From contig CM071568.1 in NCBI GenBank assembly GCA_036426205.1, positions 44,438,203 through 44,502,202 of the forward strand: a DNA stretch of 64,000 nt, in the 5' to 3' direction. Below, in pieces: positions 9,740-62,470 of this stretch; within the stretch, counting starts at the first letter, position 1, and every line of letters begins with the position of its first letter. A model generated the notes under the pieces. It did not search any database and was not told the origin of the DNA. It worked only from the letters and a program-made list of their open reading frames with translations. The DNA is from Ascaphus truei (taxonomy: Eukaryota > Chordata > Amphibia > Anura > Ascaphidae). A program made the position numbers and the translations under genes.

Positions 9740-10104
9740 AGTCAGCCTCCGCTGCTCAGGATGTTACCCTCAATGGCGGCATTAACAGCTGACAGCTCTC
9801 TGGTGTTCGAATTCTGTCACCAAAAACAGGGAACACGTAGTTAGCAAGATTCAGAGCTCATAGGTTTGGGGTCCTCATCCTATCCGTTTCAACAGTTAGG
9901 CTTCTTCAGGTGTTTAAAAAAGCTTTTTTATATCTCTGAAGAAGCCTAACTGGTGAAACGCGTAGGGTGAGGACCCCTAACCTTTGAACTCTGAATCTTG
10001 CTATCTACCTATTCCCTGCTTTGGCACCAAAATTCAAACACTGGAGAGCTTTCAGCTGTGAACACCGCCATTGAGGGTAACATCCTGAGCAGCAGAGGCT
10101 GACT
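9740..10104. repeat. Fold-back element with long inverted arms
   Basis: The left arm starts AGTCAGCCTCCGCTGCTCAG and the right arm ends CTGAGCAGCAGAGGCTGACT. The arms (about 170 bp each) pair across nearly their whole length and leave a short A/T-rich centre near 9912-9930. The right arm carries a hammerhead-like motif; the left arm holds its decayed mirror copy (CCGTTTCAACAG). No transposase or reverse transcriptase is encoded. No clear target duplication was found. Confidence 0.8.
9932..9968 (+). ncRNA. Hammerhead-ribozyme-like motif
   Basis: Order seen: short stem I strand (9932-9935), CTGAAGA core (9936-9942), one extra A, stem II GCC/GGT with loop TAACT (9944-9954), GAAA (9955-9958), minimal stem III ACGCGT, A at the cleavage position 17 (9964), then GGGT. 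The core agrees with CUGANGA...GAAA. Stem I is weak here (two G.U pairs). Penelope-like elements are known to carry hammerheads with a tiny stem III; the assignment here is by pattern only. Confidence 0.5.
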
Positions 10105-13561: not shown

Positions 13562-13826
13562 TCATCACGCAGCGGGGAGCGAACGTGACGACGTAAGCCC
13601 AGCCTGTTGCGGATACACAGCGATCTAGCACTAGGGGTGTTCTCCTTCATATGTAAGCAGTATTATAGGCTAAAGCAGTCAAATTCAGGGCATTCTTGAA
13701 ACCCTAAGTAGTCCATCAGGAACAAAAAGCGGAGCACAGCTATGAAGAACCAAGGGGCTACACACCAATGTGATAAAAATAGAAGTACCTTTATTCCATG
13801 GTACACGTGGTGACACGTAGATAAAA

Positions 13827-13868
13827 CACTCTGACGCGTTTCAGGCCTTAGCCCTTTATCAAAGAGTG
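13827..13868 (-). ncRNA. Hammerhead-like motif downstream of PLE copy 1
   Basis: On the minus strand: CACTCT (stem I), TTGATAA (core), A, GGGC-TAAG-GCCT (4-bp stem II), GAAA, ACGCGT as minimal stem III, C at position 17, then AGAGTG, a perfect 6-bp partner for CACTCT. The core differs from CUGANGA at C3 (U) and G8 (A), so this copy is probably inactive, but the six paired bases of stem I and the order of parts are hard to explain otherwise. Confidence 0.65.
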
Positions 13869-14882
13869 AGTTCGCGTCTCACCAAACTGCTGCTCTTATA
13901 GACTATCCCCCATCCCCAGCTACCAGTGACGCGTGATGAATTGGCGTGAAATTCTAAACGGAGCAACCCCATTGGCGGACCCTGTCCTCCAATCGGCCGT
14001 CCGCAGAATCAAAATACTGTGCTGTGCGGAGGGGACAGAAACAACAGCGCAGATGACAGAGAAATACACGGAACAACATACTTATACAAAAACATACACA
14101 ACAATTGAAAAATACTTAAAAACAACGAACTATTCGAACGGAAAATGATATGAGTAGGAGACTCGGATTTAGATCATAGACATTCTCTATGTAATGAAAC
14201 TTATAAAACGGCAGCGGATCAGTCAATATTGTTTAGCGAAATGTATCATTTGAAAATTAATGTATCTGATGAACCATGTACATGCTTGTAATGTAATGAT
14301 GCATCAGAAAATGATTGTATCAATAAACATTAAACAAAATATATGTGCATATGTAGATACAATGGAACTACAAGATATTCAGATTTATCTCCAGATAGAC
14401 TATTTTGTAAACTATAAACATTAATTATAATTATAAAATGTAACATTATAATAGTAAATAATATCCAACAGGGAAAAAGGTTATAAGATACTCCTGTAAG
14501 GTGACCCTATGGCTATAAAGTTTGGACAACATCCTATTCAAAATATGTTCACAGAACCAAACCAATGTAAAGAACAATGCCAGAACATCTTAATCATAAA
14601 GTATATATCATAAAGTGTATATATTGAAGAATACACATATCCTAAAAAATGTAAATATTATAATTTATATCTGAATATCTAAACCATAATATGCATTTGC
14701 TAAAACATCCATGCATCTTAAACATCTATAGATAAATTGAGATAGATCATGCTGATGGAATTGTAATATGTAAATAAAATTATATACTCATAATGAGATA
14801 ATATAAAGAGATGATGCTACAATGGTCAAAATAAAATTTTCTAGCAGCTATCCATATGAGGGTAATTACTCCAGAAGGATCT

Positions 14883-16541
14883 CTAATCTACAAAGGAAAA
14901 TGTAACATAACGGACATTTGATTTAAAAAATGGATGGGGTATGACAAAAAAATGTTTCAATTCCCAGTCCATATTCATGCCCCTGGGTGATAGAGTCCCC
15001 AGGGCATATATCCAATGCATCTCTCTGCAATTTAGGCGAGCCTCTCTGTCGCCTCCCCTAGCATTAATCTGTATCAGTTCTATCGCACTAAAAGAAAAAG
15101 TGCTGATAGAGCCTAATGGACAAGAAATGAAATGACGTGCTACAGGGAATCTCTCATCTCTGTTTCTAATACTCCTAAGGTGTTCTCCTATTCTAACCCT
15201 AAGGGGTCTGATGGTTCTTCCTATGTATCCACATCCACATGCACACCTAAGTATGTAGATGACAAATTTGGAATTACAAGTCATAAAGGAAGAGATTCTA
15301 TATCTCTGATTTGTATAGACATTCCTAAGTGATCTGATGGGTGTTTCATACTGACAAAGATTACAATCACCACACCTGAAAAAAACTTTTGGAGTATTGT
15401 TTGAGGTATCTTTTTTGGAACAAAAAAGACTCGGGAAAATATGATGTCCAAAGGTCTTTGCTCTTTTGAATACTATCCTTGGGTTAGAGTTAGTAAAACT
15501 ATTCAGATCTTTATCTAACCTCAAGATCTCCCAATGTTTAAGTAAAATAAGTCTGATCTGTTCCGCCTGTTTAGAGTATGTTGTAATAAACAATGGAGTA
15601 TCCTTGGTAGATTCAGTCTTAGAATATAACATCTAAAGTTTTTTGTTTTGATTTAACTCTATTTAAGAGCTCTGCCCTGTCTGTGTGTAGAGTCTGTTCA
15701 AATGCGACTTCAAGATCATCCTCTTTATAGCCCCTGTTTTTAAACTTTAATCTCAATTGTTCAGCTTGCGATAAGAAGGACTCTTCAGTTGAGCATATCC
15801 TCCTCAATATTAAGAATTGCCCTTTGGGGATACCTCAAATTAATGATCTAGGATGGGCACTATTGGCCTTGAGCAAGGAATTCCGGGAATTAGCTTTTCT
15901 GAAAACATCAGTCTGAATTTGTAAATTGGTATCTACATAAAGACTTAAGTCCAAGTAGTCAATTTGGATATCATTATAATTGTACGTAAACTTAAGATTG
16001 TAGACATTGTTATTCAGATATTCAAAAAATTCAAACAGTGTATTTAAATCCCCACACCAAATCAATAACAAATCATCTATATAACGACGATAAAAAATAA
16101 TAAAGTGTCTAAAGGGGTTGGTGTCACCGAAAATGTGAACAGCTTCCCAGACCCCATATATAGATTGGCATATGAAGGTGCAAAGGATGTGCCCATGGCA
16201 GTGCCCTGTGTCTGTAAATAATATTTATTATCAAAAAGAAAATAATTGTGTTGTAATAAAAACATAACACAATCTAAAATGAAGGTGCTCTGTGCTAAGT
16301 GAATGTTATAATTAGTCAGAAAGTGACTAATTGCTTTTGTGCCCAGAGTGTGATCTATTATAGTATATAGTGAGGTCACATCTAGTGTGACCCACATATA
16401 AGTGTTAGACCAAGTGATCTTTTGAATATCTGATAATAAGTCAAGTGAATCCCTCAGATATGATGGTAGTGTTTTTACCAAAGTTTGCAAAAAATGATTC
16501 CTGATGGATGTACTTAGCCACTGCCTATCTGTGTGATGCAC
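14883..16541 (-). pseudogene. PLE reverse transcriptase plus GIY-YIG endonuclease, broken
   Basis: The protein copies RNA into DNA at a nicked target; the GIY-YIG domain makes the nick. Reading minus: 16541-16077 holds the RT fingers and palm with VTLDVTSLYT and GTAMGTSFAPSYANLYMG. A frame change just after 16080 leads into RRYIDDLLLIW, the catalytic YIDD box. 16071-15835 continues the palm to NSRNSLLKANSAHPRSL. 15807-15619 is the linker (QAEQLRLKFKNRGYKED). 15632-14883 contains the Cys-rich lead (CGDCNLC) and the endonuclease core VIYILRCACGCGYIGRT with RIGEH. Catalytic residues of both domains remain visible, but at least three frame breaks separate them. The family match is clear from the YIDD and GIY-YIG pairing. 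Confidence 0.9.
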
Positions 16542-17203: not shown

Positions 17204-18110
<907 letters not shown>

Positions 18111-18253
18111 GCACTGTGTGATATAGATATCTGCAGTGTAAGCGTATATAGAGGTGGTTTCATGTATTTACCATTTTATTTTAATAAAAAAATCTATTTA
18201 ACTATACAAAAGTGTCTATTATTTATGAAAAAAGTCTACATTTAGCCTATAAT

Positions 18254-18396
18254 AGTAATAATCCCCTCAGAACAGGGCATTACTGGCCAATAATGCCCTG
18301 GCTGGGTTCAAGTCCTTCGGCTTCGCCTCGGGCCTTCAACTCTTCCAGCCAAAGCATTATTGGCCAGTAATGCCCTGTTCTTCGGGGATTATTACT
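18254..18396. repeat. Hairpin repeat (inverted arms of about 50 bp)
   Basis: AGTAATAATCCCC and AACAGGGCATTACTGGCCAA on the left pair with TTGGCCAGTAATGCCCTGTT and GGGGATTATTACT on the right. The loop is GC-rich (about 18308-18340). Family unknown; it could be a MITE or the end of a larger element. Confidence 0.75.
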
Positions 18397-18538
18397 TAAA
18401 TATAATCTTCTGCACCCTGTACTTACCTAGCTGTAGTTCTGTGGGTTTTGAATTGAGAATTCACCATTGTGCATAGACTGTGTGGGTTTACAGATCCTAT
18501 GTGATCTTTTTTTATTCATGTAGTTTATGTGATATTGT

Positions 18539-19298
18539 TATAGCCCATCTTCCCTCTCCCAATCGCAGATAGGGTCCCTTAAGGTGTTCTGGGGTCTGGC
18601 TAGGTGTCTCTGTGTGGTGCATACCTGCTGGCAACAGGAGGGCCTGAGTCTCCCTCGATGACATGGGGGATAACAGGAACAGGTTACTGGGGTGGATGCC
18701 TTTGTTCTGGTTCAATGGTGCAGCGCCTCCATCTATAGTAAGCCCCAGGAATGCGGGGTGGAATCCTTACCACAGAGTTTCCCCTCCAGGGATGAGAGAT
18801 TCCAGTCTCACACAGGGTTGTCTTTAAAAGCAGCAGTCTCTTTATTCACAGCAGGGCAGCAGCAGCAGCCGACAGGTACACTTCATGCACAGTCCACTAA
18901 CTGTTCTCCCTTGAGATGGTCCTGTCTCCACTCTGGATCCTACGGGCATCTAGAGTGGGGCTAGCTCTTCCCTCCCCCCTAAGCAGGATGAGAGGTACTT
19001 GATCCACCTCACTAACTATAGCTAGATCAGCTCTACTCAAGAGCTGATCACTCCTCTGCTTCCTAACACACTTCAACCCTTTTGCACTAAATAAGAAGTG
19101 ACACTGCTTTATGTAACCTCCAGTAGGCACCCCCCTGCGTCTCTTGATTGGACACAGGGTTACGTGACCTACCTTCACTTACACAACCCAGTGTCATAAG
19201 CGGGGGAAACCCATGTCAACTCCTGGCAATCTTCCCTTAGCAGAGTTTACACACAGGAGGAGGATAGAACTATAGCCCCATTTCTTACCAGGGCTACA
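18539..19298 (-). mobile_element. Solo LTR, minus orientation, 4-bp duplication TTGT
   Basis: The ends are TATAGCCC (TG mutated to TA) and GGGCTACA, flanked by TTGT at 18535-18538 and 19299-19302. On the minus strand an AATAAA signal lies near 18836. The motif GGTGCAGCGCCTCCA (about 18717-18731) is shared with the other LTRs here. The start CCCATCTTCC...CAATCGCAGATAGGG is nearly the same as that of the LTR at 33713, so the two are related. Confidence 0.8.
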
Positions 19299-19404
19299 TT
19301 GTTATTTTGAGTCAATTTCTAAAGTTTTGGAATATTGACTGATGGTTCTTTTCTCTTTTGAGCTTCCTTTTTGTGTATACATAATGAACTTCTGCCTTCA
19401 TAAG

Positions 19405-19660
19405 ACATGTGTAAGGATCCGTGATAAGCCTGGCCGCGCACCCCGCAGCACAGGTCCACCTTGTCCCACGACCAAGCACCTTCCTGACAAAGTGGGGGGA
19501 CACCACAAGCACCCTTACCAAGGTGTGCTCCCCTGGCACATCCCGCAGCGCCACAGAGGTACCCGTCCTGTTCGGCCCACGTGCCCGCCGTGCGCCTGGA
19601 GAGACCGGTGCCGCTGGCCCTGCCTCTGGTCTCCGTTCCCATCCGTTCTTTTATATATAT
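19405..19660. other. GC-rich LTR-like fragment
   Basis: A GC-rich block bounded by AT-rich DNA begins TGTAAGGATCCGTGA, similar to the start of the LTR at 9284, and stops at the AT microsatellite at about 19651. It has no matching end, so I treat it as a possible truncated LTR. Confidence 0.3.
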
Positions 19661-19677
19661 ATATATATATGTATATA

Positions 19678-20504
19678 TGTAGCCATGCTGTAAAATGGAC
19701 TGCAGTTTCCTTTCCTGCTGGCAGTAAGGCCTGGTAAGTTACAGGAATGCCAGCAGTAATCATGGAGGTTTGCCCTCGCACCCTGGTGAGGTGCCCTATG
19801 TGTGGAGGGGAGGAGCTACATACTCTGAGTCCATTGTTAGTGACATCAGAGATGTGCCTGCCCCTGGAGATATAAGGCACAGCACTGTTCAAAGTTAGTG
19901 TTGTTGGCGTAAGGAGCAGGTCTGCGTTGAGACCTGGGAGCTGGAGGCCCACTAGTGCTGTAACTAGTGGCCTTATAATATATCAATCAGCAGCAAGCTG
20001 TGCACACCATACTGTGTCCAGGGACCTGGCACAGGGGTGATCTCCCTGAAGGGAGAGGGGAACCCACTCCATTGGGAGGGTGTACCTTTGAAGGGATCAC
20101 ACACCAAGATGTGCAGCTGAGTCAATCACTGCGAGGGGCAGCTAGCCCATACCGCAACTACAATAAAGAATGACCTTGCATAAAGATAATTCACTGTGAG
20201 AGTCTGGAGTTACTCGGCAGGGGAAGACACCACCAAGAAGGAGTTCCTCATCAGAACCATCTCCTTGCGGACGCAGAGATCCTGATGAGGTGGAGGCGCT
20301 GCACTGGATATAGGTAGGACTCATACCCACTACCTCAGCTGCCTGTCTGGGTTGGCAATCCCCACACAACATCATGCGGGAGACTCAGGAGTCCTGTTGC
20401 CAACGGGTGCACCACCAGACACTACCATGTAATGGGGACTGGTTAGACCACAGGGGCCAATGTGAGATATGGTTTGGTCAGGCCAGGCCAGAAAGTCTGT
20501 TACA
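19678..20504 (+). mobile_element. Solo LTR, plus orientation, 4-bp duplication TATA
   Basis: It runs from TGTAGCCATG to GTCTGTTACA and sits inside an AT microsatellite with TATA on both sides (19674-19677 and 20505-20508). Internal signals in the right order for U3-R-U5 are a TATA-like box (GATATAAGG, about 19868) and AATAAA (20162-20167). It carries TGGAGGCGCTGCA (20291-20303), the reverse complement of the word found in the minus-oriented LTRs, which confirms its orientation. Confidence 0.85.
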
Positions 20505-20573
20505 TATATATCTATATATATATATATATAATATATAGAATATTATTATATATATTATATATATATAATATAA
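20505..20573. repeat. AT microsatellite
   Basis: Alternating TA and imperfect TATA units. Together with 19651-19677 it is the target into which the solo LTR inserted. Confidence 0.85.
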
Positions 20574-21068
20574 TCTGCAGCACTCGCCTAATGAAATGCA
20601 ATGTCAAATTTATTTATACCATATGGCAACCCATAGAAAAAATGATGATTGGTAATCCTAGTCCTTCTGCCTGCACTCCATACCAAACTAAGTATGTATT
20701 CTTCGATACATGTGTATGCACCAGGCATCTTTTGTTTTATATATATATACTTAGTTAAGTTATGGTGGGTAAAAAAAAGTGACAAAAAACCTCCGCAGCA
20801 AAGCATATAGCAAATGGAAATATTCCTGTATGCTCATTTGCATGTCTTAGACAGGTCGGCAACCCCGCCTTTCACCATTATAACCCAGCACACAGCACTT
20901 CCACTGCAGCAAGGGATTCTGGGAAATGACCTGCAAATGAGCACACATATATATACAGTATATCGCCCCTATCACACCTGGCTGCATAGGGATAGGGTGT
21001 ACATAATAACAGTGTCTCTCAATGTCTCTAAATCTATCAGACAGGGTTTTATATGCTCCAATAGTATA

Positions 21069-21801
21069 TGTAGCTCATCAGTTACCTCTCATCTCAGGGT
21101 CTTCTTCTGGGGGGCTCAGGCCAAGGCTGTTGGAGTGAAATGAATAGAACAGGGCACAGGAACTTTTCAACTGTAGTATTTATTGGGTACAATTATCCTC
21201 ATACAGCTTAAACAAGGTTCTTCCTTAGGCAAGAGAGATGCTTACCTCCCCCATAATTTGCTTCAGAACTGACTCTCTATTGCTACCCAGGACACGGGTC
21301 CTTTCCTGGGTCTCAAGCCACTTCCTTTGGGCAGGAACTGATCACCTAGAACTATAATATCCTCAACCTTCCCTTGGGTATATTAGGCCTCAGCAGGAAC
21401 TGATGTACCTAAGACTGGAATATCCTCTCCCAGGGGTCTCATCCACCCCCTGGGTAGGAGAGGGCTCAGGAGGAGTCAGACAAGCCTCTGACTCCACAGG
21501 ACTCAGAGCAGAACCAGAACCTCTCAACTGAATGAGGGGGGGGAGGGGAGAATCACAACTTTATACATGGGGAGTGGACAACTTCTCTGCCCCAGTTACT
21601 GGGCAGATCTTGCTGTAGCAAAATCACTCACCCTGGCATGTGACTTCAACTGCTCTCAGACGTGCCTGAACACTGCAACATAGTACCTATACTGGGGAAC
21701 TCACTCACATGCCGGGCCATGTGCTAAGGATTAACTCTAGCACTGCCTGATATTACCAGGATTTACACTGCTAGGCCAAAGGAATATAGCAGGGTGCTAC
21801 A
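21069..21801 (-). mobile_element. Probable solo LTR, minus orientation
   Basis: It runs from TGTAGCTCATC to GGGTGCTACA, giving inverted TGTAGC/GCTACA ends. On the minus strand AATAAA lies near 21178, close to the 5' coordinate end as in the other minus LTRs. Its last 40 bp (TATTACCAGG...GCAGGGTGCTACA) recur at 25006-25058. No matching target duplication is visible on the right because a CA repeat follows. Confidence 0.55.
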
Positions 21802-21846
21802 CACACACACACACATGTATGCATGTAGCATGTAGCATACTGTGTA

Positions 21847-21931
21847 TGTAGTCCCCTTTCCCTATGCCTAAGGGAACTTCACGGGCAACTATGCGTGCTG
21901 CTGTACCTGTCTGCTCACAGGAGGCCTAAGC
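21847..21931 (-). mobile_element. Head fragment of the LTR family seen at 25.1 kb
   Basis: TGTAGTCCCCTTTCCCTATG...CAGGAGGCCTAAGC matches the first 85 bp of the LTR at 25113 with few changes. It is cut off abruptly and followed directly by PLE coding sequence. Confidence 0.7.
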
Positions 21932-21949
21932 CTTTCAATTTGTTTTCAA

Positions 21950-22740
21950 TTCTAATCTCTGTGTGCCTATTTTGTGCCATATCCCAAAGATCCATAAGAC
22001 CTTAATTGATCCCCCAAGCTGTCCAATTGTGTCGAGTATAGACTCTATCACTGCCAAACTTTCACGTTATGTGGACACATTTTTGGCACCCATGACCTCC
22101 GTTCTTCCATCATATCTTAGAGATGGTATGGAAGTTTTAAATTTACTTAATAATATAATTTGGGAGGAAAATTTTATTTGGGCCACTTTGGATGTCAGCT
22201 CACTATACACATGTTTAAAACATAGATTAGTTATTATGGCAGTTGCACATTTTCTACACCAACATAATAATTTATCAAGTGCACAACAGGACTTTATCAT
22301 TGATAGCATTTGATTTATTTTGCATCACAATTATTTCTTGTTTGAGGGTGAATACTTTTTACAGACCAATGGAATGGCCATGGGCACTTGTTTTGCCCCC
22401 AATTGTGCAGGGTTATTTATGGGTCTCTGGGAAGAGGAATATGCATGGATGGATAATGGGTATTGTCAATATTTGGTCTATTATGGCAGATATATTGACG
22501 ATATTCTGATTATCTGGTCTGGATCTAGGGGAGAATTGGATGAGTTCATCACATTTTTAAATGAGAATGATCAGAACATTGTTCTCATTGGAGAGGTAGA
22601 TCCAATAAAAATCAATTTTTTGGATCTGAATCTAAAGGTGGTAGAACATCGTATTGTGACCAAACCCCATTTTAAGAAGGTAGATGTCAATTCCTACCTT
22701 GATTACACTAGTAATCACTCTGAAAAATGGCTAAAAAATA
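21950..22740 (+). pseudogene. PLE copy 2: reverse transcriptase fragment
   Basis: Frames 21963-22313 and 22320-22754 read HIPKIHKTLIDPPSCPIVSS, then WATLDVSSLYT, NGMAMGTCFAPNCAGLFMG and RYIDDILIIW, and end at NSYLDYTSNHSEKW LKNIPYG. These are the template-binding motif, the palm and the catalytic YIDD of a PLE reverse transcriptase. One stop/frame change lies at about 22312. The 5' part of the protein and the whole GIY-YIG domain are missing. The coding sequence ends exactly where a minus-strand LINE begins. Confidence 0.85.
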
Positions 22741-24455
22741 TACCGTATGGGTAGGTTGTGCCAGTTTTGAGGTGCACTGTAAGAGAAGGAGGAGCGGCCG
22801 GATACTTTGTTGAGCCATGGGACCATGAACAGTCTTTTGGAGTCTGATCTCAGATAATGAGTGCTGCATGTGGTAGGGGTGAGGAGCTTGTTCATATAGA
22901 TGGGTAGCTTGCCCAGAAAGTATTTGAAGGCAAGACAGGAAAGGTAAACTTTGCGCCTAGACGCGAGTGATGACCAATCTAGTTCATTGAGCATTTCGCA
23001 GTGATGTGTGCTGTAGTTGCATTGGAGAACAAAATGACAAATTGAATTGTAGAGGGTGTCAAGTTTGCTCAGGTGGGTTTGGGGTGCTGAGCCATATACT
23101 GTGTCTCCATAGTCGATAATTGGCATTAGCATTTGCTGTGCAATACGCTTTCTGACCAGCAGGCTTAGGAAGGATTTGTTCCTATAAATTACACCTAGTT
23201 TGGCATAGGTTTTGGATGTCAAGGTATCAATGTGCAATCCGAATGTTAAGTGGGAGTCAAACCATCTGCCCAGGTATTTAAAAGTAGTAACAGAAGATAG
23301 GGTGGTGTTAGCGTTGGTTCTGATCTGGAGCTCAGTCACTGGAAGCTTTAAAAATTTAGTCTTGGTCCCAAATGCCATTGTTACAGTCTTGTCAGTGTTT
23401 AAAAACAGTTTGTTTTCGGAAATCCATTCTTCGAGTCTCAAAAAGTCAGACTGAAGTATGTGTTCAAGGTCGGAGAGGCTATGGCTGTGTGCATATAGGA
23501 TTGTGTCATCTGCATACATGTGTATTGAAGCTTCCTTACAAGCTGTGGGAAGATCATTGATGAACACTGAGAAGAGTAGGGGCCCCAGAACAGAGCCTTG
23601 CGGGACGCCACAGATGATATCAAGGGGATTGGAGTTAGAGCCTGAGATGGACACATGTTGGGATCTACCTGATAGGTAGGACTGAAACCAGTTGAAAGCA
23701 TGCTTCCCTATTCCAGAGCTGTGGAGTTTGTTAAGCAGGATAGCATGATCAACAGTATCAAAAGCCTTTGCAAAATCTAGGAATATTGCACCAGTGAGTT
23801 GACCCCGTTCCATTCCACACTGGATTTCATTGCAAACTTTTAGCAGGGTAGTTACGGTAGAGTGTTTGGGGTGAAAGCCAGATTGGAATTGGCTAGGGAA
23901 ATTTGTCTTGGTATAGTAATCGCTTAATTGGGAGTGGACAAATTTTTCCATGACTTTGGATAGGATTGGGAGAAGGGAGAATGGCCTGTAGTTTGAGACA
24001 GTGTTTTTGTCCCCACTTTTGAAGATTGGGACAACTCTGGCAGTTTTCCAGGTCTTAGCGATATGGCCTGCAGACAGGATAGAGTTGACTATAGAAGAAA
24101 TTGGTTTGGCAATAGCTGGGGCACCAAGTCTTAGGAACCTAGATGGTAGTAAGTCAGGTACACATTGGCTGCTTAGTTTTAATTTGAGGAGCGCTTGTGT
24201 AATCTCCTCTTTGGATACTGGGCCAAATTGAAAATAGTGGGCAGTGTTGGGAGGGGGTGGGGCTATATGGGTACTCCCAGGATGAGATTCAGGTTTGTGG
24301 TTTGGGTTGCATTTCGCTAATAAATTAGTAGCACACCCCGCAAAGTAATCATTGAATGCACTTGCAATGTCAGTGGGGTTTGTCAGAGTAATATCCCCCT
24401 TAGTGATATCACATGGCTGTTGATGGTTAGAAGGCTTGTATAATGTTGTCATGTT
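22741..24455 (-). mobile_element. Rex1/CR1-group LINE, truncated at both ends, long open RT frame
   Basis: A 573-residue frame on minus (24452-22731) is an RT of a non-LTR retrotransposon. It shows [53 protein letters not shown] and the catalytic HMYADDTILY. The thumb follows and the C-terminus stops at APQNWHNLP. There are no internal stops, so the copy is relatively young. The endonuclease domain is missing at the 5' side (usual truncation), and the 3' UTR and tail are also missing, which is unusual. A related 3' end, including UTR and tail, is at 58.0-58.4 kb. I place it in the Rex1/CR1 group by motif style; L2 is less likely. Confidence 0.85.
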
Positions 24456-25005
24456 ATGTATGTGTCATGTTATGTATGTGTCATTCTTGGGTGTATGTGT
24501 GTTTGTTAGTATTCACCTGATATAGAAGAGCAATTATCCAAATTATGCACTTTAATCTAAGCACTTGGGATAATTTGTGTAGACTCAATTTAAGGGACAC
24601 ATTCCAGTGTGCTTGGATACCTCCTGAAGAAGCGCATGAAATCGTGAAACGCGTAGAGGGTTACCATACAGTCCCCACAAACCAAATTATATATTTTATG
24701 TGTCTGTGGGATAAGTTCAGCATTTGAACCTCCCCAAAGATAAGCAATTGTGAGCGCTGCTAGAGCTAGGCACGCAGCTCTAAAGAGAGGAGCAGGTTCT
24801 TCCTGGTAGCCAGCCCCTGATCCGGGTTAGTTGCAGCAGGGGGGACTCTGCGGATCTCGTGGTGTTGACGTCGGCGGTGTGAGGGGATTTGGATCGATCA
24901 AGTGGCTGAACTTCACTGTACGTTTTGAAGTTACTATGTGTATAAATAAATGTGAAATATTTCTTTGACGTCCTGACTTCTCTGTGCTCCTTTCTTTGTT
25001 CTATA
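24456..25005 (+). other. PLE-type 3' flank after copy 2
   Basis: A short tandem repeat of TCATGTTATGTATGTG (about 24447-24482) is followed by non-coding sequence with a hammerhead-like motif and, near 24940, ATAAATAAATG. By position and strand it could be the 3' region of PLE copy 2, separated from it by the LINE, but the intervening GIY-YIG part is absent. Confidence 0.4.
24620..24659 (+). ncRNA. Hammerhead-ribozyme-like motif with intact core
   Basis: CCTC (stem I, 24620-24623), CTGAAGA core (24624-24630), extra A, GCG...CGT stem II (24632-24634 with 24643-24645), GAAA (24646-24649), minimal stem III ACGCGT (24649-24654), A at position 17 (24655), then GAGG (24656-24659) pairing with CCTC. 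All invariant core residues (C3, U4, G5, A6, G8, A9, G12, A13, A14) are present. The extra A before stem II deviates from the textbook fold. It is the best candidate in the window for an active ribozyme. Confidence 0.6.
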
Positions 25006-25054
25006 TTACCAGGACTTGCAATGCTAAGCCAGAGGAATATAGCAGGGTGCTACA

Positions 25055-25112
<58 letters not shown>
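25006..25112. repeat. LTR tail fragment plus GT microsatellite
   Basis: 25006-25058 repeats the last 50 bp of the LTR ending at 21801 (TATTACCAGG to GGGTGCTACA). A GT run (25061-25112) links it to the LTR at 25113. The same order, LTR tail, simple repeat, LTR head, is found at 21761-21931. Confidence 0.7.
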
Positions 25113-25117
<5 letters not shown>

Positions 25118-26174
25118 CCCCCTTTCCCTATGCCTAAGGGAACTTCGCGGGCAACTACGCGTGCTGCTGTGCCTGTCTGCTCACAGGAGGCCTAAGCATC
25201 CGCCTCTGGGAACCTTGGGTGAGCTCTTTCTCCTTGCATGCAGCGCCTCCACCTAAGAGGTATTCCAGCGTTGGCGGGATAACCCCTCAGAAGAACCGAT
25301 ACACAGTAATAATACACCACACAATGTATATAACTAAGCTTTACTGTACACACATACTAACACAGATAACATACAATAACTGGTACCCACAGTATAAACC
25401 CAGTGACCGAACACGTGGTGGTTCCTCCAAAGTACAGAGGGTGCTGTGGCACCAGTAACCCCTGGTGTCCTATCCCAGCAATCCCACCCAAATGTGAGGC
25501 AGCGCTACCACCTGTAGATGTAGGTGCACATTGGTTACCTGGCTGGGTACTCCAGTAGCTGCTTGGCATGGTGGGTTGGAGCGAGTCCCGCGTAGCGGGG
25601 CCTCCAACACAAATCCCCTCTCTCCTAAGGGGTCCTGATCCTCCTCGCAATGTGAACTCCAGCCGGAGGGTCTCACACAATGTCTCTGGATCCTGTGACC
25701 TGGTCCCAGGCTGCGAAGCGTCCCTATCTGGGTCCTTCCCTACAACACTGACTCTGATATGGCTCAGGGCCAAACTGGGGCCTACCGTAGGGGGCAAGGT
25801 CTAGGCCTAGCCCAGGAAGCTACTGCTCCCTGGACACTACCTTTCTCCTCGGTGCCTCCGTCAGAACTGACGCACGTGCTCCCCGCACGCAAAGGATATC
25901 CTGTTCCCCAACTGCTCGCATCCCATTGGCTGGGACAGTCCCATGGTGTAGTCCCTCCCTCTAGGGATTCTGGGACTTGTAGTCTCATGGCTGCATATAT
26001 GGAGCCATCCTAAGATGGCTGCCGCACTCCTGACACTGCGCATGCATGCCTCGCCGCACTGCATATGCACGACTACCAAAATTGCCACCCCCACACTCCC
26101 GATCGCGCGGAACTCTGCCCAACCAACTGAGCAGTTCCCCTGAACCAGAGGCAGGGTAGGAGGACTCGGCTACA
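25113..26174 (-). mobile_element. Solo LTR, minus orientation (1.06 kb)
   Basis: It runs from TGTAGCCCCC to GGACTCGGCTACA. Features shared with the other minus LTRs are GCAGCGCCTCCACCT (about 25240), an AGTAAAG poly(A)-like word on minus near 25340, and a GC-rich U3 with GCGCATGC (about 26038). The flanks TGTG and TATG are an imperfect 4-bp duplication, blurred by the microsatellite on the left. Frames inside it are not genes. Confidence 0.8.
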
Positions 26175-27333
26175 TATGTATTTAATATATAAAAATGTTG
26201 TTGCCTATTTTAAAATTGTTAAACATTATACATTCGCTTACAGCACCATTAGCACCCTTTGGCTAATAGGACTGTTAGCCATTCATATATGCACACACTA
26301 TGGCTACTAATGGGTTAATACAATAGTGTTTGTCGTTTTTTCCCTATTGGTTCAGGGTTTATTACAATTAGGTTTTTTTATATGGCAAAGGCCATATCCT
26401 GCACTCTGCCATACTTGGCCACTACAGCACCCTGGTCTAGTCGGGGAAAAAATCCTATTCGCTTCTCTGAAAAAATGACTTCGGATTATTTAGAATACAA
26501 GGTGAAGATATACTTCAGCAATGCCAGCCGCTTAAACAGATCTTTAGCATTCAGTTGATTTCAGGGCTTAACCCCGAAATAGAAGTGGGAGAAGAGGGTA
26601 CCAGCATTTTTTAGCATTTTTGTTTGCGAAAAAACTGCAGAAGCTGCCGCTTTGGGCTTTATAGAATATAGCCATATATTATATATATAGAATTATATAT
26701 ATAGAATAATTTCCCTTAAACAGAATAGGACTAAAACCTTCTCCAGCTCAGGGAAGACAACATCATAGCATACTGAAAAGAGTCAGTGGGAATAGATGTG
26801 ATTCTTCCAAAGGTAATATAAAATGCGGCACGGTGCTCTTTAGTTTCATATTGTTACTGCCATGTTACAGTAAGAAGTAAAACAGAAACACAATCGGCAA
26901 CCCAGAGCTGATAAAACTGTTTCTCTAAGCCTCCTGACACAATCCTTTTATCCAGCGGGTGGCTCTAGTGCTACGCTGTAAATGTACCTGTACATCATGC
27001 AATATGCAATGCATAGCCGGTGCCTCTGGCAGAGGAGGTGTTAAATAACAGAGAAGCTGGAAATTCCCAACAGAATTAGACATACATCCATTAAAGGAAA
27101 ACGGCAAAGCATTTTAGGAATGTAGTCAGTTTTCAAAAACGATAACTTTAAATATAAGTTCCCGTATGGTACTGTTGTCTTAAAACATGTACTGTAGGGC
27201 GTATGCTTCAAAGTCTCCAATAAAGAATGTGGATTTTTTACATAACACTTTAGCAACATTTATTTTATACTGTAGCTGCAGTCTGTTTTAAACAGTTTTC
27301 AGAAATGATATATATATATTGATATATATATAT

Positions 27334-35022: not shown

Positions 35023-35265
35023 TAACTATGAAACTAGTTTTACTTGCAGGTTTTGTCATTCACTTTTACGATGTGCCTATATATAAAAAGCTAGTTATAA
35101 TATAGTAAAGATTCAGTCTTGCACACTATAAGCAACACAATAGAAGCAAAATACTTGCATTTTTGGTACCGGTGCACCTTGGTTCAGGGGAATTCCTAAG
35201 TATAAGCAAAGGAAGGGAAATCCAGGGCACTACGGATTTGAAAATAAAGATTTTTCTGTCAAAGG

Positions 35266-35303
35266 CACGACGTTTCGAACTACACAGAGTTCTTTATCAG
35301 GTG
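35266..35303 (-). ncRNA. Hammerhead-like motif, left arm
   Basis: On minus: CAC (stem I), CTGATAA (core, G8 changed to A), A, GAAC-TCTGTGTA-GTTC (perfect 4-bp stem II), GAAA, ACGT as minimal stem III, C at position 17, GTG (stem I partner). GTC at the cleavage site is the preferred hammerhead triplet. The G8 change would be expected to reduce or abolish cleavage. Confidence 0.5.
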
Positions 35304-35312
35304 ACTGGCAGT

Positions 35313-35350
35313 CACTTGATAAAGAACTCTGTGTAGTTTGAAACGTCGTG
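35313..35350 (+). ncRNA. Hammerhead-like motif, right arm
   Basis: On plus: CAC, TTGATAA, A, GAAC-TCTGTGTA-GTTT, GAAA, ACGT, C, GTG. It has the same layout as the left arm with one more core change (C3 to U). Confidence 0.5.
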
Positions 35351-35466
35351 CCTTTGACAGAATAAATCTTCATTTTCAAATACATAGTGCCCTGGATTTC
35401 CCTTCCTTTGCTTATATATAAAAAGCAACAATTTACATAAACCATTCTAAAAAAACAAATCATATA

Positions 35467-46639: not shown

Positions 46640-47170
46640 GAATAAGGGCATGAAAACCCACAGGAATAACTCACTGTTTGCTTCCACAGTCCATAGTGTG
46701 GTCCCAAGGCGGTAATTCAGCGGCGTATAGTCCACCAAACAAGGTAACAGGATACAGGTGAGAAGCAGTGCACTGCCTAAAAAGCAGGAGGAGGCTCATG
46801 GCTGCATAAAAACATCTTTATTCCATAAGTGGATCAAACATGACCCCCAAGAGCAACAGCAGGTAACACACCTACGCGTTTCAGGCCGTGTGCCCTTTAT
46901 CAAGGTGTAATATGCTTAAAATGCCAGCCGGTATATAAATACAAGCGCCGATCGTGCCAACGGGTGACATCACGTCCCATAAACCAATCCGCTAACATCT
47001 CCTACGTGCGGTTACTCTGATAGGCTAGAGTGTTGGTCTCAATTAGAACAAACTTTATTGAGACTATAACATGTCTCCCTATATATCAACAAGTGTGTAT
47101 AAGCTTTAGACACGGACGATCTGATTGGTTGATCGTCACGTCGTCACGTCAATAAGAACTTAGACTGGGA
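46640..47170 (-). mobile_element. PLE-type 3' end fragment
   Basis: It has the same layout as the 3' region of PLE copy 1 (13740-13990): on plus, a TTTATTCCAT word, then about 50 bp later ACGCGTTTCAGGCC and CCCTTTATCAA, then GC-richer sequence with CAATC/CCAATC words. No coding part remains. Assignment to PLE rests on this resemblance and on the ribozyme-like motif. Confidence 0.5.
46868..46908 (-). ncRNA. Hammerhead-like motif
   Basis: On minus: ACACC (stem I), TTGATAA (core), A, GGGC-ACACG-GCCT (4-bp stem II), GAAA, ACGCGT, A at position 17, then GGTGT pairing perfectly with ACACC. The core has the same two changes (C3 and G8) as the motif at 13827-13868, so the two probably descend from one decayed source or represent a variant core. 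Confidence 0.6.
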
Positions 47171-47597: not shown

Positions 47598-49496
47598 CTA
47601 TTCGTATGCTTCTTTAAGCAAGTGTGTCTTAAGGTGGGTCTTAAAGGTGGATAGAGAGGGTGCTAGTCGGGCACTGAGGGGAAGGGCATTCCAGAGGTGT
47701 GGGGCAGTCAGTGAAAAAGGTTTAAGGCGGGAGAGGGCTTTAGATAAAAAGGGGGTAGAAAGAAGACATCCTTGAGCAGAACGCAAGAGTCGGGATGGTG
47801 CATAGCGAGAAATTAGGGCTGAGATGTAAGGAGGGGCAGAAGAGTGTAAAGCTTTAAAAGTGAGGAGAAGAATGGAGTGTGAGATACGGGATTTGATTGG
47901 AAGCCAGGAGAAGGATTTCAGGAGGGGAGATGCTGAGACAGATCTAGGAAAGAGTAGAGTGATTCTGGCAGCAGCATTTAGGATAGATTGTAGGGGAGAC
48001 AGGTGAGAGGCAGGAAGGCCGGACAGCAGGTAATCAAAACGGTAGAGAATGAGGGCCTGAGTCAGCGTTTTAGCAGTCGAGCAACAGAGGAAAGGGCGTA
48101 TCTTTGTTATATTGCGGAGGAAAAAGCGACAAGTTTTAGAAATGTTTTGAATGTGAGGGGCAAATGTGAGAGAGGAGTCGAGTGTGACCCCTAGGCAGCG
48201 TGCTTGGGCTACTGGGTGGATGATCGTAGTTCCAACAGTAATGTGGAAGGAGGTTGTAGGGCCAGGTTTGGGAGGAAGTATGAGGAGCTCTATTTTTGCC
48301 ATGTTGAGTTTAAGGCGGCGGAGGGCCATCCAGGATGATATAGCAGAGAGACATTCAGAAACTTTGGTCTGTATAGCAGGTGTAAGGTCAGGTGTTGAAA
48401 AGTATATTTGTGTGTCGTCAGCATAGAGGTGATATTTAAACCCAAAAGATGTGATTAGGTCACCTAGAGAGAGTGTGTACAGAGAAAAGAGAAGAGGTCC
48501 CAGGACAGAGCCCTGGGGTACCCCCACAGAGAGATCAATAGAGGAGGAAGTGTTAGCAGAAGAGACACTGAAAGTACGATGGGAGAGGTAGGATGAGATC
48601 CAGGATAGAGCTTTGTTCCGAATACCAAGAGTAAGGAGAATGTGAAGGAGAAGAGGGTGGTCCACGGTGTCAAATGCTGCAGAGAGGTCGAGTAATATGA
48701 GCAGAGTGTAATGACCTCTGTCTTTGGCAGCATGGAGGTCGTCAGTTATTTTAGTGAGGGCTTTTTCCGTGGAGTGAGCAGTGCGGAAGCAAGATTGTAG
48801 AGGGTCTAGGAGAGAGTAGGTGTTGAGAAAATGGAGCAAGCGAGAGAATACAAGACGTTCAAGGAGTTTAGAGCCAAAAGGCAGGAGGGAAACAGGTCGA
48901 TAGTTAGAAAGACAGGTAGGGTCAAGCTTGCTGTTTTTGAGTAATGGTATGACTGTTGCATGTTTGAAGGAGGATGGAAAGGTTCCAGAGCAGAGGGAGG
49001 AGTTAAAAATGTGTGTGAGCGTAGGGATTATAGTAGGAGCAAGAGGTTTTAGGAGATGGGAGGGAATGGGGTCAAGAGGGCAAGTGGTAGAGGGAGAAGT
49101 GGCGATCAACAGCGACACATCCTCCTCTGAGACAGTGGAAAAAGAGTCAAGGAAGGCAGGAGGAGAGTTAGGAAGAAGTGTAGGATGGGAAGAAGAAACA
49201 AAGGGGATGTTCTGACGTATGGATTCCACCTTTTCCTTAAAATAGTCAGCAAAGTCCTGAGCGGAAATGGAGGAAGGAGAGGCAGCTGAGGGTGGTTTGA
49301 GTAGAGTATCAAAGACAGAGAACAGTCGGCGTGGGTTAGACTTGTGCATGTTGATTAGTGCAGAAAAGTAGGCTTGTTTAGCTTGCGAGAGGGCAGAGTT
49401 GAAACAGGATAGCATAAATTTGTAGTGAAGGAAGTCTGCGAGAGTGTGAGAATTCCTCCAGAGGCATTCAGAGGAACGAGTGGAGGAACGCAGCAT
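47598..49496 (-). pseudogene. L2 reverse transcriptase domain (in frame with the endonuclease, after one stop)
   Basis: A 632-residue open frame. RT motifs in order: [92 protein letters not shown], the catalytic [12 protein letters not shown], and the thumb with [16 protein letters not shown]. The C-terminus, [19 protein letters not shown], is typical of L2. The domain copies L2 (and MIR-like SINE) RNA at the nicked target. Only the TAG about seven codons upstream separates it from the endonuclease frame, so the ancestral protein was one ORF2 of about 1,000 residues. Confidence 0.95.
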
Positions 49497-49514
49497 GCGT
49501 GTGTGGGAATTTAG

Positions 49515-50564
49515 CTAGGGTCTAGGGTTAGAAGGGCGAGTGCGGCAGAGAGAAAGTGGGGCATGTAGATCAAGAGAGGAGGACAAGACAGAGTTGTAGT
49601 TCCTGACCAGGTTGTCAGGGTCTGTAGCAGAGCTGAGAGAGGAGAGGGAGGAGCGTAAACTGGACTCAAAGTCAGGTAAGTGAATAGAGCGCAGGTTTCT
49701 GCAGAACCGGGGTGTAGATGGAGGTGGAGAAGGGGAGAAGCGAGATAGAGAGAATGAGATGAGATGGTGGTCAGAGAGAGGAAAAGGGGAAATGGAGAAA
49801 TCGGAGAGAGAGAAGTTGTTAGTGAAAACCAGGTCTAAGTAGTGTCCATCCTTGTGGGTGCTGGCTACAGTCCACTGTTGAAGGCCAAAAGAAGAGGTTA
49901 GAGAAAGAAAGCAGGAAGCCCAAGGGAGAGAGGGGTCATCAATGTGGCAATTGAAGTCCCCAAGGAGAAGAACAGGGGAGTCTGAGGAGAGGAAGAAAGA
50001 GAGCCAGGATTCAAAGTGAGAGAGAAAGGCAGAAGGGGGATGAGTAGAGGTAGGTGGGCGATAGATGACCGCCACATGAACATGGAGAGGAGAGAAAATC
50101 TGGACAGTGGTGAGCTCAAGGAGGGAAAGCAAGAGAGGAGGAATAGGAAGGGTTCGGTAACGACAGAGAGAGGAGAGCAGGAGCCCCACGCCTCCACCCC
50201 TGCCATCAGTGCGCGGAGTGTGGGGAGAAGGAAAGGCAGTGGCCTTTCCTTCTCCCACACTCCGCGCACTGATGGCAGGGGTGGAGGCAGCTTCCAGAGA
50301 GTCAGACTGAGTGAGCCAGGTCTCAGTTATAGCAAAAGAACAGGGAGTGAGAGAGAAAGAAGTCATGCACAGAGAGGAACTTGTTAGAGGGAGCGAGCAT
50401 TCCAAAGGGCACAGAGAAGGGAGAGAGGAGGGAGGGTGGCAGGGGATGGGTATGAGGTTGGAGGGGTTGACACCAGAAGGAGTAGAGGTTGCAGTTGGCA
50501 GGCGAGGACGACGCATGTAGGAATAAACAGGGACCAGGATTGGGAGAGATATCCCCAGAAGCAA
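49515..50564 (-). pseudogene. L2 apurinic-type endonuclease domain
   Basis: A 349-codon frame ending in TAG. APE-family motifs: FAITETWLT (catalytic Glu), GRGGGVGLLLSS, VAVIYRPP, VLLLGDFNCHID (Asp/Asn pair), YLDLVFTNN and PLSDHHLISF (catalytic Asp-His). All catalytic residues expected for target nicking are present. The first roughly 35 codons of this frame overlap the 2A-like leader in another frame. A 99-bp palindrome (50190-50288) lies within the domain and does not break the frame. Confidence 0.92.
50190..50288. repeat. Near-perfect palindrome inside the L2 endonuclease gene
   Basis: GCCTCCACCCCTGCCATCAG (from 50190) pairs with CTGATGGCAGGGGTGGAGGC (to 50288). Arms are about 47 bp with a 4-bp spacer (50238-50241) and one or two mismatches. 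It encodes residues TPAISARSVGEGKATAFPSP and the following HTPRTDGRGGG without breaking the reading frame. Confidence 0.95.
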
Positions 50565-50817
50565 GGAGGAGAAGCATGGATAGAAAGAGAATGTGTGAGG
50601 AGGATTTGTAGGGGTGTGTTTTAGTGCAGGGGATATAGCTGTGTGGTGTCAGAGGACGCAGGTAAGAAAGGAGTTCATGTGAACTGAGAAGTGGGGAAGG
50701 AAGGAGAGATGGAGATATATGGACAGAGTTAGAGACATACTGAGGCTGGTAAAAAGAAGTGCATAATTTGTGAAGAAGTGAGGCCACTGCAAATATAAAT
50801 GGTAAAGGCAGCATCAC
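50323..50817 (-). pseudogene. L2 ORF2 leader with a 2A-like peptide
   Basis: The frame starts at 50817 with a hydrophobic leader. Residues 77-96 read LFLSMLLLLASGDISPNPGP. The GDISPNPGP end (50556-50530) resembles 2A-like ribosome-skipping motifs (DxExNPGP) reported at the N-terminus of several CR1/L2-group LINEs. After it the coding moves to the frame of the endonuclease, so a frameshift lies close to 50530. The rest of this frame downstream is noise. Confidence 0.6.
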
Positions 50818-61999: not shown

Positions 62000-62470
62000 A
62001 GGTGCTAAGATCCTGCTTTCATACTGTTAGATGCATACAACTACTAAAAACCATATTAGATCAGCCCATGGGTACGAGGTTTGCGCCTAGCTATGCTAAC
62101 CTTTTCCTGGGAAACTGGGAGGAGGAGGTTATTTACAATCATAACCCCTTTGGCGCAAACCTTGTTCTATGGCGGCGCTACATAGATGATATTATTTTTA
62201 TATGGGATGGAGCAGAATCTCTTTTATTTGAATTCTTAGCTCATCTTAACGTGACTAATTATAATTTAGTATTCACAGCGACACATAGCCCATTGGCTAT
62301 TCCTTTTTTAGATCTACTGGTATATGTAGAAGATTTGAGTATTAAAACAAAAACCCATTTCAAGAATATAGACTGTAACAGCTATATTCTTGATTCAAGC
62401 TGCCACCATAAAAAGTGGCTGAGGGTGTCCCCTTTGGACAGTTTCAAAGGATAAGACGAAACTGTACAGG
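62000..62470 (+). pseudogene. PLE copy 3: reverse transcriptase fragment
   Basis: The 150-codon frame (62002-62454) reads QPMGTRFAPSYANLFLGNWE, RRYIDDIIFIWDG and HFKNIDCNSYILDSSCHHKKWL. These are the fingers, the catalytic YIDD and the end of the palm of a PLE RT. Just after FKG a one-base shift would continue IRRNCT, the next conserved PLE word, and then similarity ends. The N-terminal RT part and the GIY-YIG domain are missing. Confidence 0.85.

Follow-up and report, generated by a model that had tools for sequence, protein, structure and literature searches.

A putative variant hammerhead with an extra core adenosine in the pseudo-LTR of a Penelope-like retrotransposon of Ascaphus truei

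Minimal hammerheads have been described in Penelope-like elements (PLEs), where, according to the accessible passages of PMC7761336 and PMC6155905, they stand in tandem in the pseudo-LTRs (pLTRs) and may cut as dimers, their in vivo activity and role being called unknown. The hammerhead of PAc, a PLE of Anolis carolinensis, cleaved only when protein was present, and mutations that affect cleavage left insertion in vitro unchanged (excerpts of PMC11167929). The hammerhead of the viroid CChMVd(+) carries an extra adenosine, A10, between A9 and G10.1 and still cleaves, with a moderately lowered trans-cleaving rate; at this position 10, C or G is strongly harmful and U is 3-4 times faster (PMC3705267, in the part available). 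Natural covariation of the core pair from C3-G8 to U3-A8 was documented in several hammerheads in 2011 (PMC3088659, section 8). Minimal PLE hammerheads, U3-A8 and A10 are therefore each already in print. The extra-A hammerhead of PMC12531169 was considered as a further precedent and rejected, its extra A lying on the GAAA side by the sequence printed in the excerpt of that paper.

Here, we followed up a motif at positions 24620-24659 of the window, the whole 64-kb stretch of Ascaphus truei DNA analysed. Judged from its sequence, this is very probably a variant type I hammerhead, predicted to cleave, in the pLTR of a Penelope-like retrotransposon, and its identification as a PLE hammerhead in an earlier sequence-only reading is supported by its core, by covariation across copies and by same-strand PLE context. 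As a single locus it is ordinary. The interest lies in its family, in which a core insertion that had been taken for damage is the rule, and which has the hammerhead core, compensatory stems I and II, the NUH rule, a nearly fixed extra A and same-strand PLE context.

The motif at 24620-24659 and its genome-wide family

Read directly on the plus strand, 24620-24659 consists of CCTC CTGAAGA A GCGCATGAAATCGT GAAA CGCG T A GAGG, and every residue of the type I hammerhead core CUGANGA ... GAAA ... UH is found in order, as had been claimed. The two outer strands, CCTC (24620-24623) and GAGG (24656-24659), do pair, forming the four contiguous pairs of a stem I that covaries among copies. Between them lie the core residues C3 U4 G5 A6 N7 G8 A9 (CTGAAGA, 24624-24630), the extra A between A9 and stem II (24631), equivalent to A10 of CChMVd(+), stem II with its loop (24632-24645), the core residues G12 A13 A14 A15.1 (GAAA, 24646-24649), the CGCG of a diminished stem III (24650-24653), U16.1 (24654) and H17 (A24655), with cleavage predicted 3' of 24655. 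Stem III at the locus comprises A15.1-U16.1 and one C-G pair around two bases; its CGCG was fixed in the patterns searched. The sequence-only reading gave the motif as it is written, except that it counted A15.1 twice, in GAAA and again in ACGCGT, where there is one base only. Flanked by A15.1 and U16.1, CGCG forms the palindrome ACGCGT, so that two copies could pair there, from which we infer a possible role in dimers.

At least 42 places in the genome match the surrounding repeat (40 of 66 candidates scored), and 29 homologues were fetched with a 261-base query, 40 bases of which are the motif. Their core columns are conserved at 0.93-1.00, with the exceptions of the free N7 (0.90) and of G12, retained in 22 of 29; in the remainder of GAAA, A13 is kept in 27, A14 in 28 and A15.1 in 27. 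The extra A is kept in 27 of the 29. Nevertheless, the motif stretch does not stand out in conservation from the remainder of the repeat in these homologues (means over 20 bases of 0.855 and 0.862, against 0.78-0.95 for the repeat), so that conservation within the subfamily makes no case for function, and the case is the covariation across families.

Genome-wide, the strict pattern CTGANGAN{4,30}GAAACGCGTNGAGG had 1,764 exact matches in 2.82 Gb and none in the reversed control. A loose core pattern without CGCG was near background (433 matches, 323 reversed). The commonness of the bare core is what would be expected if the motif were a chance resemblance, in which a hairpin happened to match in a few letters and spread together with the repeat carrying it, and such a reading also draws on the lack of excess conservation and on the fold of the locus, which is no better than that of shuffled sequences (z -0.84). 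Against it stand compensatory pairs in stem II of 91 and 58 distinct sequences, covariation of stem I outside the search pattern and the table of 3-8 core pairs, all given below. We consider this explanation of the motif extremely improbable, and chance resemblance is very unlikely for the family.

A covariance model (R1), built from 39 other loci with the 24620-24659 copy left out, was applied to the window, the 29 homologues and 14 further loci only. In the 64-kb window it scored the copy at 39.9 bits (E 2.3e-8, the E-values being rough), and in the 29 copies of the surrounding repeat it recovered the motif 25 times, in the corresponding position, missing it in L045, L046, L055 and L057. The Rfam hammerhead check that had been proposed was negative at the locus: Rfam (release 15) reported no family at gathering score in the window and listed no hammerhead in 24300-24960 at E up to 10. 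All of 19 variant-bearing loci likewise missed the gathering scores, that of RF00163 included, while a canonical control from the same genome (L070) passed with 46.1 bits. These results suggest that standard RNA family models overlook such variants and that PLE hammerheads may be under-annotated.

The extra A, which the sequence-only reading had regarded as a deviation of this copy, is instead a property of the family, and one with a known active precedent in CChMVd(+). It follows CTGANGA in 100 of the 100 places listed for the strict pattern (all on contig C1, the head of the list and not a random sample). Across the genome, CTGANGA is followed by A and then G in 30,509 places and by a base other than A in 929 (control 78), the latter count being too high, as its pattern lacked the G demanded by the former and some of its places start at a chance CTGA upstream of ordinary extra-A copies; the share of A is thus about 97% or more. 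Judged by these counts, the extra A seems to belong to the design of the motif and not to result from decay. About 12 of 100 listed non-A places share the form CTGANGACGCCAAGA..GGTGAAACGCGT, in which C replaces the extra A and which could represent a minor subfamily instead of decayed copies.

Two classes of core pair were found with the extra A. Genome-wide, positions 3 and 8 are C-G in 30,509 places, U-A in 27,286, C-A in 1,737 and U-G in 1,442 (reversed controls 10, 6, 2 and 10, respectively), an odds ratio of about 332 in counts that come from related copies sharing ancestry and are not independent events. U3-A8 thereby makes up nearly half of the 57,795 places in the two paired classes in one genome, and the mismatched states, C-A and U-G, are what single-base decay would leave. 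Only this genome-wide table counts for the 3-8 pair, since its covariation inside the 39-copy alignment described below is an artefact of sampling 20 C3-G8 and 19 U3-A8 copies.

The stems were compared across copies in the register that skips one base after A9. Among 58 distinct C3-G8 sequences, stem II had 3.41 of 4 pairs, compared to 2.88 (sd 0.07) when arms were shuffled between copies, and 36 sequences were fully paired; without the skip, the mean fell to 0.67. Among 91 distinct U3-A8 sequences (hand-typed from 100 listed, repeats left out), the corresponding values were 3.80 and 2.51 (sd 0.08), with 74 fully paired, and the second pair was UA in 33, GC in 27, CG in 16 and AU in 11. A stem II starting directly after A9 was rejected, being fully paired in 0 of 58 and 2 of 91 sequences. 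Since the arms pair when one base is skipped, the extra A lies outside stem II in the family.

Stem I, which the search pattern does not fix, was examined in the 39 loci used for R1. These were hand-picked without a written rule near the head of each list (roughly its first 30 places), some repeats and others being skipped, and with no sequence condition outside the core and CGCG; 40 had been fetched and one (L102, an 11-base filler) was dropped. On average, 3.82 of the 5 stem I pairs were formed, compared to 2.72 (sd 0.15) after shuffling, and 24 of 39 loci had at least four contiguous pairs. In the alignment of these copies (A1), 85.3% of cells in the named structure were paired compared to 57.5% in shuffles, none of 500 of which reached the observed value, and the covariation score was 0.788 against 0.275 for shuffles and at most 0.173 when the partner was slid. 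Two of the five measures were not above the shuffles, namely pairs changed on both sides (9 against 8.2, with 189 of 500 shuffles as high) and pair types (31 against 28.9, with 100 of 500 as high). Taken together with the 58 and 91 stem II sequences, covariance in stems I and II across copies, on which the sequence-only reading had made its claim depend, was found in both.

Position H17 in the 39 loci is A in 21, U in 14, C in 4 and G in none, and it is G in none of 100 listed copies. This is the hammerhead (NUH) rule, and it was not imposed by the search. It bears on a reading in which the structure is kept for a role other than cleavage, such as binding or priming by the PLE RT, with an ancestral core that is catalytically silent. 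Such a role would fit with PAc, which did not cleave without protein and whose cleavage mutants insert normally in vitro (excerpts of PMC11167929), with the lowering of CChMVd cleavage by the extra A (PMC3705267, in the part available) and with the retention of G12 in only 22 of 29 homologues. A pure protein-binding hairpin, however, would need neither the exclusion of G from H17 in all 39 loci nor the core residues other than G12, found in 27-29 of 29 homologues, and we therefore regard a non-cleavage role as unlikely compared with the hammerhead reading.

The host element and its neighbours

The motif lies in an interspersed repeat (24436-25002, plus strand; copies about 73-92% identical), which is read as the pLTR or 3' untranslated region of a PLE, here called copy 2, and whose left edge varies between 24436 and 24463 with the copy compared. 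Upstream on the same strand, at about 21932-22751, is a PLE reverse transcriptase (RT) fragment with one internal stop, its translation containing RYIDDILIIW and NGMAMGTCFAP, which we take to be PLE RT motifs. At another locus (L080), the same RT fragment recurs at 90.6% DNA identity; the same pLTR (83.7%) lies 1.4 kb downstream of it on that strand, and a GIY-YIG match separates the two. GIY-YIG is absent from copy 2; where the PLE endonuclease part would be, 22752-24435 holds another RT ORF on the minus strand (RVT_1, Pfam E 1.9e-36), and neither L079 nor L080 matches the window between 22751 and 24463.

The RT fragment and the pLTR are enclosed by a direct duplication of about 182-195 bp, detected by sequence comparison (left copy 21750-21931, right copy 25003-25197, both on the plus strand), with 75% identity including gaps and 89-95% in ungapped parts. 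Its two copies come within 2 bases of where the RT fragment starts and the pLTR ends, boundaries that were set from the points at which the match to L079 breaks off on either side and that to L080 on the right. PLE target duplications measure 8-10 bp in the passages available of PMC3846280. The duplication around copy 2 is either unusually long by comparison or a pre-existing repeat. The arrangement is best accounted for by one insertion that duplicated a long target, and a pre-existing tandem repeat is less favoured; both readings place the RT fragment and the hammerhead in one element. No comparable flanking duplication was found within 1.5 kb of 25 other copies, the longest repeat there being 51 bases and inverted. 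The same-strand link of the hammerhead to PLE copy 2, proposed in the sequence-only reading, is accordingly borne out by the RT fragment with the pLTR, the L080 arrangement and the enclosing duplication.

Since the element is 5'-truncated at 21932, it has no first pLTR. Tandem hammerheads in two pLTRs are absent here, the insertion having one pLTR, which is a property of this copy and need not hold for the family. No second copy of the repeat lies beside the pLTR in 18000-27000.

Across 30 pattern loci, GIY-YIG or RT matches within 1.5 kb were upstream on the same strand in 11, upstream on the opposite strand in 2, downstream on the same strand in none and downstream on the opposite strand in 1, with none within 1.5 kb in 18; 2 of 8 chance-core loci had a PLE match. 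In some copies of the surrounding repeat (L043, L048), PLE matches lie on the other strand. The 21 of 29 repeat copies (L040-L068) that have no PLE protein match within 1.5 kb on either side would suit a non-autonomous retrozyme, a short repeat with a canonical hammerhead, in place of a PLE pLTR, and so would the presence of canonical type I hammerheads in the genome. Such an origin is hard to reconcile with the same-strand upstream RT and GIY-YIG in L080 and the GIY-YIG of L041, L045 and L053 (L045 without the motif), with the single duplication that encloses the RT fragment and pLTR, and with R1, which scores canonical motifs at no more than 13.5 bits. Metazoan retrozymes are recognised by short tandem repeats with canonical hammerheads; at this locus no adjacent repeat copy occurs in 18000-27000, and PLE coding sequence lies in cis. 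A retrozyme is thus very improbable here, and the pLTR of a PLE is the preferred host.

The canonical type I hammerheads score up to 48.8 bits with RF00163 and have at least 42 matches in the genome (74 candidates scored). In 9 of the 10 canonical loci L069-L078 (e.g. L070:1501-1544), the motif is shown alike as CTCACACTGATGAGACC...GGTCGAAACGGCCGTCTGTGAG, with a palindromic stem III.

The window contains further hammerheads of both core classes. In PLE copy 1, on the minus strand, a U3-A8 hammerhead (13825-13870, R1 46.2 bits) lies about 1.0 kb 3' of a GIY-YIG ORF (14883-15632; Pfam 21.1 bits, just below the cut-off of 22.6), and an RT is present at 15820-16493. A second U3-A8 hammerhead occupies 46865-46911 on the minus strand (R1 52.6 bits), and both places read TTGATAA rather than CTGANGA. 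A hammerhead of the C3-G8 class with a weak stem II is at 9928-9972 on the plus strand (R1 31.6 bits). The RTs of copies 1 and 2 are 34-50% identical in pieces, and both core classes with the extra A are thus present in divergent PLEs.

Head-to-head arrangements were also seen. The 9928-9972 hammerhead faces a weak match at 9873-9917 on the minus strand (R1 14.0 bits, E 0.24), and 35261-35355 holds two related motifs on opposite strands, both ending in GAAACGTC, of which the minus copy reads CTGATAA (R1 23.9 bits) and the plus copy TTGATAA (22.0 bits). The latter pair sits inside an inverted repeat, and GAAACGTC amounts to an even shorter stem III. Both pairs (9873-9972 and 35261-35355) resemble the head-to-head PLE pLTRs in the excerpts of PMC3846280. 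Elsewhere in the window are a further PLE RT fragment, 45.9% identical to that of copy 2 (62068-62433, plus strand), adjacent ORFs with Exo_endo_phos and RVT_1 matches, resembling a non-LTR retrotransposon (47598-50648, minus strand), and a 52-nt inverted repeat, 92% complementary with arms 39 nt apart, resembling a small foldback element (18254-18396).

Condition of the copy and a proposed mechanism

At 24620-24659, stem II is formed by the pairs 24632-24645 (a G-U), 24633-24644 and 24634-24643. The fourth, 24635-24642, is broken by T24642, which is private to the window (27 of 29 homologues have G and 2 a gap), so that only three pairs remain, the G-U included. Folded as a hammerhead, the copy has a calculated energy of -5.3 kcal/mol compared to -11.9 kcal/mol for its best fold, and among 14 natural copies this topology is the best fold in none and within 1.0 kcal/mol of it in three, the gap in the 13 others ranging from 0.3 (L052, L064) to 9.3 kcal/mol (L041); these energies ignore the non-standard contacts of the hammerhead core. 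Homodimer energies were below twice the monomer energy in 14 of 14 copies, a comparison that had no control and is no measure of activity.

The presence of all catalytic residues and an R1 score of 39.9 bits, 11th of 26 when ranked with the 25 homologous copies by bits from separate scans, would be in keeping with an active self-cleaving ribozyme at this locus. With the fourth stem II pair broken, a weak stem I, a competing fold and no tandem partner, we nonetheless think activity of this copy rather improbable. It is most likely a decayed, 5'-truncated relic that is itself hardly active, if at all, its activity being doubtful because of the private stem II mutation and the lack of a 5' partner pLTR. 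The sequence-only reading had called activity uncertain on account of the extra A. That base is no deviation of this copy, whose weak points are instead the damage to stem II and the lack of a second pLTR.

Where an element is full-length and in tandem, its two pLTR copies could pair through the palindromic ACGCGU to form a shared stem III; alternatively, they could be held by PLE protein. Hammerheads paired or held in this manner would cleave 3' of H17 and release unit-length pieces of the transcript. We speculate that A10 might keep a lone motif slow, such that cutting would take place only in tandem or protein-bound transcripts. More broadly, we tentatively propose, at somewhat less than even confidence, that an undescribed hammerhead subclass with a fixed A10 and either C3-G8 or U3-A8, represented by 57,795 exact matches to the patterns in a single genome of 2.8 Gb and missed by Rfam thresholds, may serve two or more divergent PLE lineages as their standard module for predicted self-cleavage, in which A10 may be kept as a brake that makes cutting dependent on dimers or on PLE protein. 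The family shows clearly how the 3-8 core pair varies in nature, and its many natural sequences can be used to ask what would make a slow hammerhead preferable for a retrotransposon.

Comparison with known systems

Lunse et al. are said to have reported about 150,000 variants in 2017. In the open literature passages covered, which include neither Cervera and de la Pena 2014 nor Lunse et al. 2017, we found no PLE hammerhead described as having a fixed A10, and the combination of A10 with U3-A8 may already be visible in one or the other of these two papers. Like the minimal type I PLE hammerheads, as presented in the accessible passages of PMC7761336 and PMC6155905, the family has a pLTR location, almost no stem III, thousands of dispersed copies and a dimer model. 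It differs from them, in comparison with those review descriptions rather than with the original figures, by its fixed extra A after A9 and by its U3-A8 class. The PAc hammerhead, whose cleavage is protein-dependent, stands at the start of the ORF in the excerpts of PMC11167929, unlike the family described here. RF00163 (Hammerhead_1) shares the order of the core and an open stem I with the family, whose tested loci, in contrast, stay below its gathering score.

The family resembles CChMVd(+) in having one extra A between A9 and position 10.1, with stem II in the register of one extra base. A CChMVd-type stem II opens with G10.1-C11.1, whereas the 24620-24659 copy has a G-U at 10.1-11.1. Furthermore, CChMVd is a plant viroid with loop-loop contacts, whereas the copies found here belong to retrotransposons, number in the tens of thousands and have hardly any stem III; A10 is a feature shared by the two and not a sign of shared descent. 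Tens of thousands of natural sequences hence keep a core base that, in the one case described in the available part of PMC3705267, lowers the rate. As in the hammerheads of Perreault et al. 2011 (PMC3088659), C3-G8 covaries to U3-A8; unlike section 8 of that work, which presents several examples and no insertion after A9, the family has U3-A8 in nearly half of 57,795 places, together with the extra A.
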